DNA of 64,000 bases from Candidatus Zixiibacteriota bacterium (GTDB lineage Bacteria; Zixibacteria; MSB-5A5; DSPP01): NCBI GenBank assembly GCA_022614805.1, contig JAKEHY010000038.1, forward strand, positions 248,001 through 312,000. Reading direction: 5' to 3'. The number at the start of each line of letters is the position of its first letter. Position 1 is the stretch's first letter. A model generated the notes under the pieces. It saw only the letters and a list, made by a program, of their open reading frames with translations. It was not told the DNA's origin and did no database searches. Shown here in pieces: positions 11,118-47,474 of the stretch. The position numbers were made by a program, and so were the translations under genes.

Positions 11118-11534
11118 ATGAACTGGAAACTCGTTTTCGGACTGACAGTATTCGGCATTTTGATGGGGGTTCTTTCGCTTTTTGGATATACGCAGGGAAT
11201 GGAGTGGCTGCTCTGGTTGGTTATAGCGGTTATTTGTTCCGTGATAATAGCCAAAGCTCTCTCCGGAAAGTTCTTCTTAACCGGCCTGGTGATTGGACTT
11301 CTGGATGGTGTTTTTAACTCCATTGTCCAGTCTGCTTTCTTTTCCACCTATTTGACCAATAATCCAAAATTTGCCGAAGGTTTCGGCCCGATTCCGGGTG
11401 GATTGGACCCCCGAATGTTTGTTTTAATCGCCGGGCCGTTCATTGGTTTGCTCTACGGGCTGGCGCTGGGTTTGTTGGCTTGGTTGGCGGGGAGAGTGTT
11501 CAAGAAATCGACAGTACAAGCGCCTGCTGCATAA
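11118..11534 (+). CDS. Small four-helix membrane protein, function unknown
   Basis: 138 residues with about four hydrophobic segments (near 5-22, 28-46, 50-72 and 100-125) and an Ala-rich basic tail. The SD GAGAGGAG lies before ATG at 11118, 20 nt after the DUF1579-like gene, so the two are probably one operon. I do not recognise a family motif. It ends just before the AT-rich nuclease-like gene and shows normal base composition. Confidence 0.65.
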   Translation: MNWKLVFGLTVFGILMGVLSLFGYTQGMEWLLWLVIAVICSVIIAKALSGKFFLTGLVIGLLDGVFNSIVQSAFFSTYLTNNPKFAEGFGPIPGGLDPRMFVLIAGPFIGLLYGLALGLLAWLAGRVFKKSTVQAPAA

Positions 11535-11550
11535 GCTGCAGATTAACTCA

Positions 11551-12297
11551 ATGCGAACCAGATTGGATAATGCCCTGTTGTATTATGCTCCTAAAGATGA
11601 GCAGGGAGTGGTTTATCTTTTTTCACACTTTGCTAGGAATCGTTTTGGCCTCCGAGTAGAAACTGTTCAATCTAATTACCCTGACTGCATTGCCTTTCTT
11701 AATGGAAAGCGCATTCGTATTGAGTTTGAATATTATTCCGGTAACTTTGAGCGACACAAGCACAATCCCAAAGGTTGTGATTGGATAGTTTGCTGGACTC
11801 ACGATTGGCCGGAGGCCCCTTCTCACCTTAGAATTATTGAGCTTAGGAAAGAATTTGGTTTAGGTTTCAATGTCTGGGTACAACCGGTGAGCGATGAAAA
11901 TCGCAGGAAGCAAATATCAAAAACACATAAAGGGTGGTGGAGTGTTCCGCGCTCCGCTTCGGTGGGAGACCTTGTTCTCTACTATCGAAGTCATCCGAAT
12001 AAATTCATTCAGGATATTTTCTGTGTGTCCGTACCGGTAGAACGAACACAGGCCGGTTGGAAACGCGGCAGGGATTGGATGGCCGAAATTAGGAGAGTAG
12101 CGATATTGAAAAGACCCCTGTACCTTAATGAACTAAAAGAAAATATGGTGTTGAAAAATTCCGGTTTTATTCGTAGCAGAATGAGAACTCGTTGCAAGAT
12201 TTCCGACGACTGGCCGGAACTGTATCGGATGATTTTAAGCCGAAATCCCGGTTTGAAGGTAGTCTTAAGAGATTACGGCCCGGAACGGTTGGCTTAA
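11551..12297 (+). CDS. Putative PD-(D/E)XK nuclease fused to an EVE-like domain
   Basis: A 248-residue protein. Residues 44-60 (PD, then a 12-residue gap, then IEFEY) look like a PD-(D/E)XK core with an E-x-E variant; E-x-E is known from BamHI. F66..H70..CDWIVCW (76-82) continues the conserved-looking patch. From residue 129, WWSVPRSASVGDLVLYY matches the start of an EVE/PUA-like domain, which in other proteins reads modified bases. The pairing suggests a modification-dependent (type IV-like) restriction enzyme; this is inference. The gene is clearly AT-richer than its neighbours and sits between unrelated genes, a sign of transfer. The start ATG 11551 lacks a strong SD. No methyltransferase is nearby. 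Confidence 0.6.
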   Translation: MRTRLDNALLYYAPKDEQGVVYLFSHFARNRFGLRVETVQSNYPDCIAFLNGKRIRIEFEYYSGNFERHKHNPKGCDWIVCWTHDWPEAPSHLRIIELRKEFGLGFNVWVQPVSDENRRKQISKTHKGWWSVPRSASVGDLVLYYRSHPNKFIQDIFCVSVPVERTQAGWKRGRDWMAEIRRVAILKRPLYLNELKENMVLKNSGFIRSRMRTRCKISDDWPELYRMILSRNPGLKVVLRDYGPERLA

Positions 12298-12323
12298 TCG
12301 AAGTTCACCTTAAATTACCCTCT

Positions 12324-13181
12324 GTGAACTCGGATGCCTTCACCACCCAGCCCCTTGAACTGAAAAAAGCGTCTTTCGTTTTATCCATAGACGTTGAAAG
12401 CTGGGAGGAGGCGAATATCGACTGTCAAATTCCGACCAAGCCCTCGCTTGTCCGGCAGGTCGATAAAGTTTTGGAGCTTTTGAGCAGGCGTAATGCCAAG
12501 GCCACTTTTTTTATCTTGGGCAAAGTGGCAGAAACTTTTCCCGATGTTGTGAAGAGCATCGCTTCCGCCGGGCACGAAGTCGGATGTCATTCCTATTTTC
12601 ACAAACCAATTTACCGGCAAACCCCGCAGGAATTCAAAGCTGACCTTCTTCGAGCCAAACAAGCGCTGGAGTCCATTTCCGGGCAAAAAATTGTTGGATT
12701 TCGCGCGCCATATTTTTCCATAACCCGGCTGTCTCACTGGGCCTTGCCCATCCTAATTGAGACCGGTTTTACTTACGATTCCTCTCTCGTTCCCGTGCGC
12801 GCGCCAAATTACGGTTATGCGGATGGAAAGGAAGGATTTTATCGTCTAAACTTTTCCGATGGCTCTTCGCTTATCGAAGCGCCGCCGGCAACCGTTCGGG
12901 TTTTCGGCTTTAAAGTGCCACTCGGTGGGGGATATTTCAAAACGTTTTCCAAAACGCCTTTTATAGACAGGTTGACGGAACGTCAAAGGCGAAACAATCC
13001 GGCAGTTTTCTACTTTCATCCCCACGAGTTGGAGGAACTGCCCCCTCGAAGCGAATTGAAAAGCGTCCCTTTTTGGATATATTGGAAGGAGAATATGGGA
13101 CGGAGGAGGATGCCGGAAAAATTGGAGTTTTTGCTTTCCTCTTTCCGTTTTACCTCCTTCAAGCAGGCGTTGGGGTTGTGA
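12324..13181 (+). CDS. Polysaccharide deacetylase (NodB family, DUF3473-like tail)
   Basis: About 285 residues. NodB motifs are intact: SIDVESW (catalytic/metal Asp), CHSYFH (metal His pair), RAPYFS and FYFHPHEL. The tail from PFIDRLTERQRR on resembles the DUF3473 extension of exopolysaccharide-locus deacetylases. The GTG at 12324 is a guess: there is no clear SD, and the frame stays open into the preceding gene. Its TGA overlaps the GTG of the following CoA ligase (GTGA), so the two are translationally coupled. No sortase or glycosyltransferase cluster accompanies it. The substrate is probably an N-acetylated surface glycan. Confidence 0.8.
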   Translation: MNSDAFTTQPLELKKASFVLSIDVESWEEANIDCQIPTKPSLVRQVDKVLELLSRRNAKATFFILGKVAETFPDVVKSIASAGHEVGCHSYFHKPIYRQTPQEFKADLLRAKQALESISGQKIVGFRAPYFSITRLSHWALPILIETGFTYDSSLVPVRAPNYGYADGKEGFYRLNFSDGSSLIEAPPATVRVFGFKVPLGGGYFKTFSKTPFIDRLTERQRRNNPAVFYFHPHELEELPPRSELKSVPFWIYWKENMGRRRMPEKLEFLLSSFRFTSFKQALGL

Positions 13182-24654: not shown

Positions 24655-25344
24655 ATGAAAAGCGCGACAAACAACCCCGCTATCGGCATAGAAAGGGAAG
24701 AGGCCAAACCCGTGACCGTGACCAAAAAACGCAGGAACCTGCAAGGGTATTTGGACGAAGTTCCAGACCGCATTTATCTCGGTCTCGTCCGCATCCACGA
24801 GCTTTCCCGGGACGGCCTCATCGAAAACCGAAAGGCGACCGCCGCCATTCAGGAAGCGCTGGGCCTGGAGGCCTATCCGCCGCAGGCGGTCAGACGGCTT
24901 ACCGGCATTTTCTCCCATCGGGGCTATCTGGAAAAAGTGATAAAGGGAGGAATGTTGAAGGGGTACCGCATAACCGATTTGGGAAAGCAGGTTATCGCGC
25001 GGGAAATTCAGCCGGGCAGCGAAAAGGCCCGGCCGGGCAGAAGGCTGGTTTTTCGGCTTCCCAAGCTCTCGGAGGAGGATTTCCGGACCCTGATGGAAAG
25101 AGCCAAAGCGTTCGAAGAGGCCAGCCGGAAGCTGAAACAGAACGAGAAGGACCTGGCGGCCCTCAAGAAAAAAAAGGAAAAGCTAACCGCCCGCCGGGAC
25201 CGCTTCACCGAGCAAATTAACGAGCTGGTTTCCCAGCAGGCCGGCATTTTGGAAGAGAATCAGGGGCTACGAAAGCTTGTTTCCCAGTCGACTTTGGCCG
25301 CCGAGAAATTACGAGAGATACGGGACATTATCCAGCGGGGCTGA
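24655..25344 (+). CDS. Unrecognised protein: winged-helix-like N-half, coiled-coil C-half
   Basis: 229 residues. Residues 28-120 look like a winged helix (IYLGLVRIHELSRDGLI, then MLKGYRITDLGKQVIARE). Residues about 135-225 form a long heptad-patterned coiled coil (LKQNEKDLAALKKKKEKL). A DNA-binding protein that dimerises through the coil is plausible. No known family was identified. The SD is poor; ATG 24655 was taken because it begins the open frame. It lies in an accessory patch between the MITE and a gatC fragment, which suggests acquisition by transfer. Confidence 0.55.
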   Translation: MKSATNNPAIGIEREEAKPVTVTKKRRNLQGYLDEVPDRIYLGLVRIHELSRDGLIENRKATAAIQEALGLEAYPPQAVRRLTGIFSHRGYLEKVIKGGMLKGYRITDLGKQVIAREIQPGSEKARPGRRLVFRLPKLSEEDFRTLMERAKAFEEASRKLKQNEKDLAALKKKKEKLTARRDRFTEQINELVSQQAGILEENQGLRKLVSQSTLAAEKLREIRDIIQRG

Positions 25345-25345
25345 C

Positions 25346-25455
25346 CCGCTCCCACCACTTACCCAATCGGGTTTTTTCCTCTTTTGTCAAAGCCAAGCGG
25401 GCCAGTTTGGCGTAACGGCCCACGTCGGAAGGTTTAGAAATTATGACCGGGTGAT
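25346..25455 (-). pseudogene. Diverged fragment of gatC (5' part)
   Basis: The minus strand encodes KPSDVGRYAKLARLALTKEE, matching the N-terminus of the intact GatC (QPSDVERYAKLARLALSEEE), and DNA similarity continues slightly upstream of the start. After about 35 codons the similarity ends and the frame stops at 25328. The several synonymous and conservative differences show an old duplication, not a recent one. The fragment lies 1.2 kb upstream of intact gatC in the same orientation, with the MITE and the gene at 24655 between them. Confidence 0.7.
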
Positions 25456-25516
25456 ACATTCTCTTTTTTCGTTGCCCAATGACCGCTGGCAGAAAACCCG
25501 GAACTCGGAAGAGAAG

Positions 25517-26965
25517 TTGAACAAACAAACGACGCTAGTTTTTTTGTTTTTGGCAGTCACTGGATTTATTGTTTTCTACCCGGGGCTGAAGGTCGGTTTT
25601 GTGGCCGATGATTTTATCTGGCTCGAAAAGAGCCGGCACGTAAGCGAATTCAATCTATTTGACACGAGTAGTTTCGCTTTCGTCAAGGGCCGTCCGGGAA
25701 CGATGCTAATCTTTTCCGTGCTCGACCGTTTTTTCCATCTCTATTCTACGGGCTTTCATTGCGTAACATTAACCTTTCATATATTGAATGCGTTTCTGTT
25801 GTTTCTAATTTTTCATACCATCAAACTGAATTATGGATTTAGTCTTTTAGTTTCTCTGCTTTTTCTGATTCACTTTTCAAATGAGGAAAATATCTTCTGG
25901 GCCGCATCCTTGTGCACGGTATTTTGCCTGTTTTTCTATCTTTGCTCGGTTTTGATTTATCTAAAATGGCTGGAAAATAGTCGTATGATTTTTAAGATAA
26001 GCGGATTGATTTTCTCTGTTTTGGCTGTGTCCGTTCGAGAAGACGCCGTTACCATACCCCTTGTCTTTTTGATGCTCCATTTTTGGAATGATAAAGCCAA
26101 GGAAGATAGACCCATAACTTGGGTCACTTCATTCCACAAGAATTGGTTGTTTTTCCTTCCACCCTTGTTCTTTTTGATTTATCGATGGGTTTCACTGGCC
26201 CAGGACCCTCGAGGGTATTCTTTTGCCTTTAGCCCTGTCATTTGGGTTCAGAACATCGCGTATTTTCTTGTGAACCTGTTACTACCCGTACGCTACGCTT
26301 TCGATAAAGTTGGCTATGATGTACAAACAGAGTTTCGGAATCACTTAATGTCCTATCAGAGTTCTGTAGTTGGAGTAATAGGCATCTCATTATTAATTTT
26401 GTTTTTCTTGGCCGTAAGGGCTAGAAAGAAAATTCCTAATCTCGTAAAGGCTGGGCTGCTATTATTCTTTATTGGACTGCTTCCATATTTGTTTTTGGTT
26501 GGAAACGCCCCAAGGTTTCTCCATTTTTCTTTGATTGGGGGGATGATTGTGATTTCCAGCGCCCTTTACGCGGCGGCGAGACTATTTTCAATGCCCAGTC
26601 CGGAAAAATTTGTTTTACTTCTTGGAGCTGCCTTCACAGTTGGAAACTTGATCGTTTTGCACGAACGCGCCGGATGGTGGGTTAGAGCGGGCCAATTGGC
26701 GGAAAATATCGTAGCAGAATCTTCGGTTTTGGCTGGAAACCTTGAGAAAAATGAGGCCGTCTATATTACCAATCTTCCCCGTCGGATAAACGGAGTCTAT
26801 ATTTTTCACATTGGTTACAATGAGGCAGTATCCCTGTTTCATCCGGAAACAGATAGAAGATTGCAGGATATAGGTACTAAAGATTTTGATGAGCTTAGAA
26901 GTTATAAGGATCGAAGAATTTTTACTTATAAGGCCGGCAAAATGCAGGAAGTAAGAATTCCTTAA
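25517..26965 (+). CDS. Putative GT-C type membrane glycosyltransferase
   Basis: 482 residues with about ten to eleven hydrophobic segments. The first periplasmic loop has FVADDFIWLEK (Asp31-Asp32), the place and form of the catalytic Asp motif in GT-C (PMT/ArnT-like) enzymes. The C-terminal 80 residues are soluble. The TTG start at 25517 has GGAAGAG upstream and opens directly into the first helix. Base composition is markedly AT-rich against the surrounding genes, suggesting horizontal transfer. It is convergent with purA (1-nt gap). Acceptor and donor cannot be told; glycosylation of an envelope component is inferred. Confidence 0.65.
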   Translation: MNKQTTLVFLFLAVTGFIVFYPGLKVGFVADDFIWLEKSRHVSEFNLFDTSSFAFVKGRPGTMLIFSVLDRFFHLYSTGFHCVTLTFHILNAFLLFLIFHTIKLNYGFSLLVSLLFLIHFSNEENIFWAASLCTVFCLFFYLCSVLIYLKWLENSRMIFKISGLIFSVLAVSVREDAVTIPLVFLMLHFWNDKAKEDRPITWVTSFHKNWLFFLPPLFFLIYRWVSLAQDPRGYSFAFSPVIWVQNIAYFLVNLLLPVRYAFDKVGYDVQTEFRNHLMSYQSSVVGVIGISLLILFFLAVRARKKIPNLVKAGLLLFFIGLLPYLFLVGNAPRFLHFSLIGGMIVISSALYAAARLFSMPSPEKFVLLLGAAFTVGNLIVLHERAGWWVRAGQLAENIVAESSVLAGNLEKNEAVYITNLPRRINGVYIFHIGYNEAVSLFHPETDRRLQDIGTKDFDELRSYKDRRIFTYKAGKMQEVRIP

Positions 26966-45367: not shown

Positions 45368-46402
45368 ATGAAAGTCGCTTACGAAAAACCTAAAGTAGAA
45401 AAAACGATAAAATCCGATTTGGAACTGACCAACGAGGAAAAAAAGGAGCTGTACGCCCTGGTTTTAAAGTCGCGGATGTTCGACGAGCGCTTCCGCAAGC
45501 TGTTCCGGGCCGGGCGGTTCGCCGGCACCTATTTTTCCGGCGTGGGGCAGGAAGCGACCGCGGTGGTCCCCTGCTACAAGCTTTTGCCCCAGGATTTCGT
45601 CGGCCCCTCCCACCGGGAGCTGGGCTGCTCGATTGCCCGCATGCCGCTTAGGCAAATCGCCGCCCAGATTTACGCCCGTTCCCACTCGCCGGACAAGGGG
45701 AAATCGCATCCCTGCAGCTACGGCTACAAACCGTCCAACATCATCACCCCCGCTTTCACCATCGGGGCGCAGGCGGTTTTGGCCACGGGCGTGGCTTTGG
45801 CCTTCAAGATTCGCAAAGAACCGTACGTGGCCTTGAGCTTCGTGGGGGAAGGGGCAACCGCCCACGGGCCTTGGTATGAAGCCGTCAATTTTTCGGCCGT
45901 GCACAAGCTCCCCAACGTTTTCGTCGTGCAGAACAACCTCTGGGGGGAATCGGTGCATGCCCGGCTGGTGGCCGCTTTCGAGGACTTCTCCCACCGGGCC
46001 GAAGGGGTGGGAATGTTCGGCGTTTCCATCGACGGCAATGACGTGTTGAAGGTCTGGGAAACGGTCGCTTCCGCCATCGCCCGCGCCCGCCACGGGGAAG
46101 GCCCCACCCTCATCGAAATGAAGACCTACCGCTGGTACGGGCATTCCGAAATCGACCCGGCCGACTACCGGCAGCCGGAAGAGGTGGAATTCTGGAAGAA
46201 GAAAGACCCGATCGCCCGCTATGAAAAGTATCTTTTGGACAACAGGTTGCTCTCCCCCGAGGAAAAGAAGCGAATCGAAGCGAAGCTCGAAGCGGAAATC
46301 GAAGAGGCGGTGGAATACGCCGAGGGGGGGGAGTACGCACCGGCGGAGTGGGCCCTGGAGGACGTTTACGCCGACTTTAAAGTCGAAGCACCCGACCGCT
46401 AA
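45368..46402 (+). CDS. 2-oxoacid dehydrogenase E1 alpha subunit, copy 1
   Basis: 344 residues. The thiamine diphosphate region GEGATAHGPWYEAVNF..VVQNN is intact, as is the active-site His loop YRWYGHSEIDP. E1 alpha with E1 beta decarboxylates pyruvate or a branched-chain 2-oxoacid and acylates lipoyl-E2. SD AAGGAG precedes the ATG. A second, very similar copy starts 40 nt downstream, then E1 beta. The substrate cannot be read. Confidence 0.92.
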   Translation: MKVAYEKPKVEKTIKSDLELTNEEKKELYALVLKSRMFDERFRKLFRAGRFAGTYFSGVGQEATAVVPCYKLLPQDFVGPSHRELGCSIARMPLRQIAAQIYARSHSPDKGKSHPCSYGYKPSNIITPAFTIGAQAVLATGVALAFKIRKEPYVALSFVGEGATAHGPWYEAVNFSAVHKLPNVFVVQNNLWGESVHARLVAAFEDFSHRAEGVGMFGVSIDGNDVLKVWETVASAIARARHGEGPTLIEMKTYRWYGHSEIDPADYRQPEEVEFWKKKDPIARYEKYLLDNRLLSPEEKKRIEAKLEAEIEEAVEYAEGGEYAPAEWALEDVYADFKVEAPDR

Positions 46403-46442
46403 AAAACCGGTTGGAAAACCGAAAACCCACCATTCCGGTTCT

Positions 46443-47474
46443 ATGAAAGTGGCTTATGAGAAACCCCCATCGGAAACCCCCTCGGAGTTCGGGCTTTCCC
46501 CCAAGGAGAAAAAGGAGTTGTATTACCTGCTTTTGAAGTGCCGGATGTTTGACGAACGGTTCCGCAAACTTTTCCGGGCCGGGCGCTTTGCCGGCACCTA
46601 CTTTTCCGCCGTCGGCCAGGAGGCCACCACGGTGGTACCGAGCTACAAGCTTTTGCCCCAGGATTTCATCGGGCCGGCCCATCGGGAGCTGGGCTGCAAC
46701 ATCGTCCGCTCCCCGTTGAAAGTCATCGCCGCCCAGATTTACGCCCGCGCCAACTCGCCGGACAAAGGTCTATCCCACCCCTGCCATTACGGCTACAAAC
46801 CTGCCAACATCATCACCCCCGCCTCCACCGTCGCCGGCCAGAGCGTTCTGGCGGTCGGCGTGGCTTTGGCCTATAAAATTCGCAAGGAGCCGTACGTGGC
46901 TTTGGCTTTCGTTGGCGAGGGGGGAACGGCGATGGGACCCTGGTATGAGGCGGTCAACTTTGCGGCCGTGCACAAGCTGCCCGTTGTTTTCATCGTGCAG
47001 AACAATTTATGGGGGGAATCGGTGCCGGCCCGGCTGGTCGGCGCTTTTGAAGATTTCTCTCACCGGGCGGACGGCGTCGGAATGCCGGGAGTTTCCATCG
47101 ACGGCAACGACGTTTTGAAAGTCTGGGAGACGACGGCGCCGGCCGTCGCCCGCGCCCGGAGGGGGGAGGGGCCGACCTTGATCGAAATGAAAACCTACCG
47201 CTGGTACGGGCATTCCGAAATCGACCCGGCTGACTATCGCCCGAAAGAGGAAGTGGAATACTGGAAGAAGCGGGACCCGATTCCGGCCTATGAAAAGTAT
47301 CTGATGGGCAACAAAAAACTGACGCTGGAAGAGAAGAAACAAATCGAAGAAAAAATCGACAAGGAAATCGACGAGGCGGTCGAGTTTGCCGAGGCGGCCG
47401 ACTACGGCCCGGTGGAATGGGTTCTGGGAGACGTTTACGCCGATTTCAAGGCGGATGCGCCGGACCGTCCTTAA
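46443..47474 (+). CDS. 2-oxoacid dehydrogenase E1 alpha subunit, copy 2
   Basis: 343 residues, about 75-80% identical to the preceding copy by eye, with the same intact motifs (GEGGTAMGPWYEAVNF, WYGHSEIDPADY). The N-terminal 20 residues and surface positions differ more than the core. No SD is seen before ATG 46443, so translation probably relies on reinitiation or coupling after copy 1. The tandem arrangement is a lineage duplication. It may serve another substrate or another regulation. Confidence 0.92.
   Translation: MKVAYEKPPSETPSEFGLSPKEKKELYYLLLKCRMFDERFRKLFRAGRFAGTYFSAVGQEATTVVPSYKLLPQDFIGPAHRELGCNIVRSPLKVIAAQIYARANSPDKGLSHPCHYGYKPANIITPASTVAGQSVLAVGVALAYKIRKEPYVALAFVGEGGTAMGPWYEAVNFAAVHKLPVVFIVQNNLWGESVPARLVGAFEDFSHRADGVGMPGVSIDGNDVLKVWETTAPAVARARRGEGPTLIEMKTYRWYGHSEIDPADYRPKEEVEYWKKRDPIPAYEKYLMGNKKLTLEEKKQIEEKIDKEIDEAVEFAEAADYGPVEWVLGDVYADFKADAPDRP

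Follow-up and report, generated by a model that had tools for sequence, protein, structure and literature searches.

A 248-residue EVE fusion protein with a predicted lysine-less PD-(D/E)XK-like nuclease domain as a candidate modification-dependent restriction enzyme

Based on fold prediction, residue conservation and genomic context, we propose that a gene in the 64,000-nucleotide stretch of DNA analysed here (the window) encodes a small type IV-like restriction endonuclease that depends on DNA modification and works without NTP, a reading to which we assign a probability of about 0.68. The protein joins an N-terminal PD-(D/E)XK-like nuclease domain, predicted from its modelled topology and conserved acidic residues, to a C-terminal EVE domain, and its target is probably chemically modified DNA, for example that of phage. 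A nuclease-EVE fusion had been suggested in an earlier note on this DNA, and that reading is supported by the EVE fold, the PD-(D/E)XK topology, the conserved acidic residues and the location of relatives near defence genes. If our proposal is correct, the gene specifies a very small (248 aa) single-chain cutter of modified DNA whose nuclease family lies outside the libraries. It would also widen the range of type IV-like restriction to phyla with few cultured members, in which it escapes the searched libraries, PADLOC among them.

The open reading frame is real as first reported, comprising 248 codons on the + strand from an ATG at 11551 to the stop at 12297 (Table 1). The PD-x12-E-F-E motif is present, with D45, E58 and E60 numbered correctly in the earlier note, and its CDWIVCW string corresponds to C76-W82. 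The histidine it placed at position 70 is wrong, the histidines being H69 and H71, and it overlooked E17, a fourth conserved acidic residue.

Table 1. Features of the fusion gene and its locus, in window coordinates.
Feature	Position	Strand	Description or evidence
Complete gene	11551..12297	+	248 aa; predicted lysine-less PD-(D/E)XK-like nuclease domain (N) and EVE domain (C)
Predicted nuclease domain, residues 1-104	11551..11862	+	AlphaFold2 model, DSSP; no family match
EVE domain, residues 105-248, candidate modified-base reader	11863..12294	+	Pfam EVE and fold matches
E17, helix A glutamate, candidate catalytic residue	11599..11601	+	43/43; K or R in 7/7 degenerate paralogues
D45, 'PD' aspartate, start of strand 2	11683..11685	+	43/43; lost in 7/7 degenerate paralogues
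E58-F-E60, (D/E)XK position, Glu for Lys	11722..11730	+	E58 43/43; both lost in 7/7 degenerate paralogues
Stretch without alignable counterpart in same-genus G001	11513..12344		flanks aligned to L111 with blastn and blastp

An EVE domain makes up the C-terminal half of the protein, from about residue 105 to residue 248. Pfam EVE (PF01878) aligns with residues 131-219 at E=2.9e-4 and 21.3 bits, just short of the 23-bit cut-off, and 10 of the 52 members of the protein alignment match the same family (best E=3.1e-8). The expected EVE fold was recovered in a comparison of the structural model with solved structures, where this half superposed on 2eve (Z 12.8, rmsd 2.5, 122 residues), 2ar1 (Z 13.8), THYN1 with 5-methylcytosine DNA (Z 11.8) and the EVE-HNH enzyme VcaM4I (Z 11.3, 122 residues). 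Since the fold superposition spans residues 105-248, the domain starts near residue 105, at FNVWVQPV, and the start previously placed at WWSVP (129) is too late. W130 is invariant across the 13 fusion rows.

For the N-terminal half, the evidence supports a PD-(D/E)XK-like nuclease domain from an unnamed family. AlphaFold2 modelling with 52 aligned relatives gave a pLDDT of 95 and a pTM of 0.81, with about 95-98 pLDDT in the core of the nuclease half; this superseded a model from 6 sequences in which the N-terminal half was unfolded. According to DSSP, the half consists of helices at residues 17-30 and 64-68 and strands at 35-39, 46-50, 53-62, 78-83 and 94-97, and its elements follow the order a-b-b-b-a-b of the PD-(D/E)XK core. 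D45 opens strand 2 and E58-F-E60 lies within strand 3 of the model, matching the placement of the PD-(D/E)XK motif on these two strands described previously (PMC4027163). The fold search with the whole model returned mainly EVE, YTH and ASCH structures, with no PD-(D/E)XK chain among the 50 PDB matches listed, but a single domain can fill such a list and the search is therefore no test of the N-terminal half. Since EVE matches filled it, the fold assigned to the N-terminal domain rests on topology and motif. The structure prediction proposed earlier thus bore out the EVE fold and, for the nuclease half, a PD-(D/E)XK topology.

Sequence searches did not assign this domain to a known family. Neither in the window protein nor in its relatives did residues 1-104 give more than scattered weak scores against Pfam, NCBIfam, PADLOC and PHROGs, and a sequence search of solved structures gave no match for them. 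A fold search of a viral library returned one PD(D/E)XK-named protein at a probability of 0.30, too weak for use. Using hhalign, the domain aligned to the PvuRts1I nuclease with a probability of 0.5%, from a family alignment of only 7 sequences, and no similarity to Mrr_cat was found with similarly shallow alignments. Searches with DUF2726 and PF18491 gave no match anywhere, controls included, and therefore offer no comparison with the domain.

Fusions with the EVE domain last were found in 12 other genomes from four other phyla. The first five came from Omnitrophica, Planctomycetota, Nitrospirae and Acidobacteria, and the rest from searches of those phyla. Two of the 12 (L006:3344-4142 and L065:1429-2253) are interrupted, either through a frameshift or through an in-frame TAA, which fits the decay of restriction genes but also relaxed selection or assembly error. 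More broadly, the members of the nuclease family identified here all belong to bacterial genomes, which span several phyla and, where named, are environmental MAGs.

The window gene is flanked by housekeeping-type genes that are colinear with those of the same-genus genome G001 at about 80% DNA identity. At the locus, 832 bp in the window correspond to about 103 bp in G001, so that a single gene was either inserted in the window genome or lost from G001. The AT-richness claimed in the earlier note holds (gene GC 0.442, GC3 0.427), as does the housekeeping character of the flanks, and we prefer gain over loss because of this composition (GC3 0.43 versus 0.54-0.73 in the neighbours). The ends of the insertion show no target-site duplication beyond a chance 6-mer and no terminator. 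Elsewhere in the window, a second AT-rich stretch (25277-26965, +; GC 0.43-0.47) carries a large membrane protein gene, and two adjacent, near-alike pyruvate dehydrogenase E1 alpha-like genes are followed by a beta-subunit-like gene (45368-47474, +).

No defence genes were detected among the window neighbours of the fusion gene, nor a methylase or helicase partner. This solitary position among housekeeping genes would also suit a modification-guided nuclease or nickase acting on the cell's own DNA, in which the EVE domain would locate a lesion and the nuclease domain would nick the DNA next to it, serving to repair or excise bases that are damaged or modified and not to defend the cell. We consider such a role unlikely, since the genus as a whole should have retained a core repair enzyme, whereas this gene is patchily distributed, missing from the same-genus genome and low in GC3, and several of its relatives reside in defence islands. 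As the earlier note had anticipated, homologues do occur near defence genes. In one locus (L077) the fusion gene lies 16 bp after an HmaC-like/DUF499 gene, with an HmaB-like methylase also upstream and Gabija-like genes downstream; in another (L075) it has the methylase and restriction enzyme genes of a type II pair on one side and a further methylase on the other; and two more loci contain AbiEi/AbiEii-like genes (L078) and a CBASS-type cyclase (L072). The remaining fusion loci have housekeeping or transposon surroundings, like the window. Reader and nuclease in one protein, a patchy distribution and defence neighbours of relatives are all traits of type IV-like systems.

The nuclease domain also occurs with partners other than a C-terminal EVE domain. 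It follows homing-endonuclease-associated repeats in 15 relatives, with a match to Pfam HNH_repeat (PF18780) in L034, is joined to HARE-HTH in L051 and to a DUF5655-like domain just under the cut-off in L007, and is found in reverse order, behind an N-terminal EVE domain, in L068. Three further proteins carry other N-terminal regions. In L053:1474-2364 (-) the nuclease domain stands behind a PUA-type, reader-looking region (MSYWVVRLGRGGEF...) without a Pfam match, and L054:464-1525 (-) and L064:247-1278 (-) have a region of about 240 residues ahead of it; that of L054 lacks a clear Pfam match, and its nuclease domain has a canonical E-x-K. The repeat-bearing relatives raise the alternative of a type II-like or homing-type endonuclease with an ordinary recognition sequence, in which the EVE domain would be no more than a general DNA clamp. 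This is quite improbable given that the EVE family has known modified-base pockets and that the phage, plasmid and viral collections, in which homing genes abound, gave no relatives with the queries and sensitivities used. Moreover, the window protein has no repeats and no intron or intein context was seen, and homing by the window copy was rejected on these grounds.

YTH domains, including YTH-m6A structures with RNA, match the EVE half at Z about 10, and an enzyme that reads a modified RNA base as YTH does, and whose nuclease cuts RNA or acts as a toxin, was therefore weighed. However, EVE proteins are the best matches and the DNA enzyme VcaM4I scores above YTH, although gaps of about 1 Z are small. 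The HNH_repeat and HARE-HTH partners of the nuclease half are of DNA type, and PD-(D/E)XK domains mostly have DNA substrates. Together these points make an RNA-directed enzyme highly improbable.

Residue conservation was counted over 43 non-degenerate relatives, the window protein included. The conservation that the earlier note made a check of its motif was found at D45 and E58, which, like E17, are invariant (Table 1), while position 60 is Glu in 41 of the 43 and Lys in two (L046, L054), where the canonical ExK is restored. As position 60 varies between Glu and Lys, the second acidic residue occupies the place of the canonical (D/E)XK lysine, which the window protein lacks (E60). Because PvuRts1I lacks this lysine too, we call the domain a lysine-less variant, PD-(D/E)XK-like but not canonical. 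The motif alone is weak evidence; what lifts it above chance is the invariance of E17, D45 and E58 in relatives from several phyla, with nothing but Glu or Lys at position 60. With both E-x-E and E-x-K relatives available, the replacement of the catalytic lysine in PD-(D/E)XK enzymes could be examined directly.

In seven paralogues from the class to which the window genome belongs, E17, D45, E58 and E60 have all been lost, although C81, W82, W86 and E97 are retained. Such joint loss of residues far apart in the sequence would be predicted for members of a single catalytic site. These degenerate proteins (L008, L009, L010, L011, L012, L013 and L021) stand alone, several end in a common C-terminal tail like FNQTIxEIDxKIKxLF, and they possibly represent a non-enzymatic protein recruited in this class. 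Such truly degenerate N-terminal domains might suggest that the window protein, too, has only its fold left and acts as a reader or regulator without catalysis. This is barely credible, as the window protein retains all four acidic residues, invariant in the fusion group (13/13). We give even odds to the broader proposal that the N-terminal domain defines an unnamed lysine-less PD-(D/E)XK-like family, a shared cutting module that, with the various partners described above, gives a new group of modification-dependent restriction enzymes and has been reused as a catalytically dead protein in one class.

For the proposed modification-dependent restriction endonuclease, we infer nuclease activity, dimerisation, the base read and a defence role, and we model the mechanism on PvuRts1I and VcaM4I. 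The C-terminal EVE domain would flip out and bind a modified base, with modified cytosine as the most plausible candidate, after which the N-terminal PD-(D/E)XK-type domain, acting as a dimer, would cut nearby DNA. The metal may be held by E17, D45, E58 and E60, with Glu replacing the usual lysine as Asp does in PvuRts1I.

Several known systems resemble the window protein in part. VcaM4I is an EVE-HNH endonuclease (PMC7897488) whose EVE domain flips 5mC/5hmC. It likewise combines an EVE reader and a nuclease in one NTP-independent protein, but its nuclease is HNH and its EVE domain N-terminal, whereas the window protein is PD-(D/E)XK-like with a C-terminal EVE domain and has no HNH match in Pfam. 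The homing endonucleases with HNH_repeat (PF18780) share the nuclease domain in the 15 relatives noted above, while the window protein carries an EVE domain in place of repeats. Similar in layout is the PvuRts1I/AbaSI family, specific for 5hmC/5ghmC, in which a lysine-less N-terminal PD-(D/E)XK nuclease precedes a C-terminal PUA-type reader. In PvuRts1I, Glu20 lies in a helix, Asp57 at strand 2, and Glu68-Ile-Asp provides no lysine (PMC4027163). The window protein is smaller (248 aa versus 293 aa for PvuRts1I) and has an EVE reader where PvuRts1I and AbaSI have SRA, a Pfam scan of it giving no PF18491, the SRA-like reader of that family. The two nuclease halves have no sequence or profile similarity detectable with the shallow alignments available. 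Finally, EVE-PD(D/E)XK fusions with the EVE domain in either position were put forward in 2020 as putative type IV restriction endonucleases (BMC Biol, PMC7641849), and that class, compared here in outline, embodies the same two-domain idea and the same predicted modification-dependent restriction. The novelty suggested in the earlier note accordingly does not extend to the class, already predicted in that outline, and would lie in the nuclease family, which is absent from Pfam, NCBIfam, PADLOC and PHROGs.
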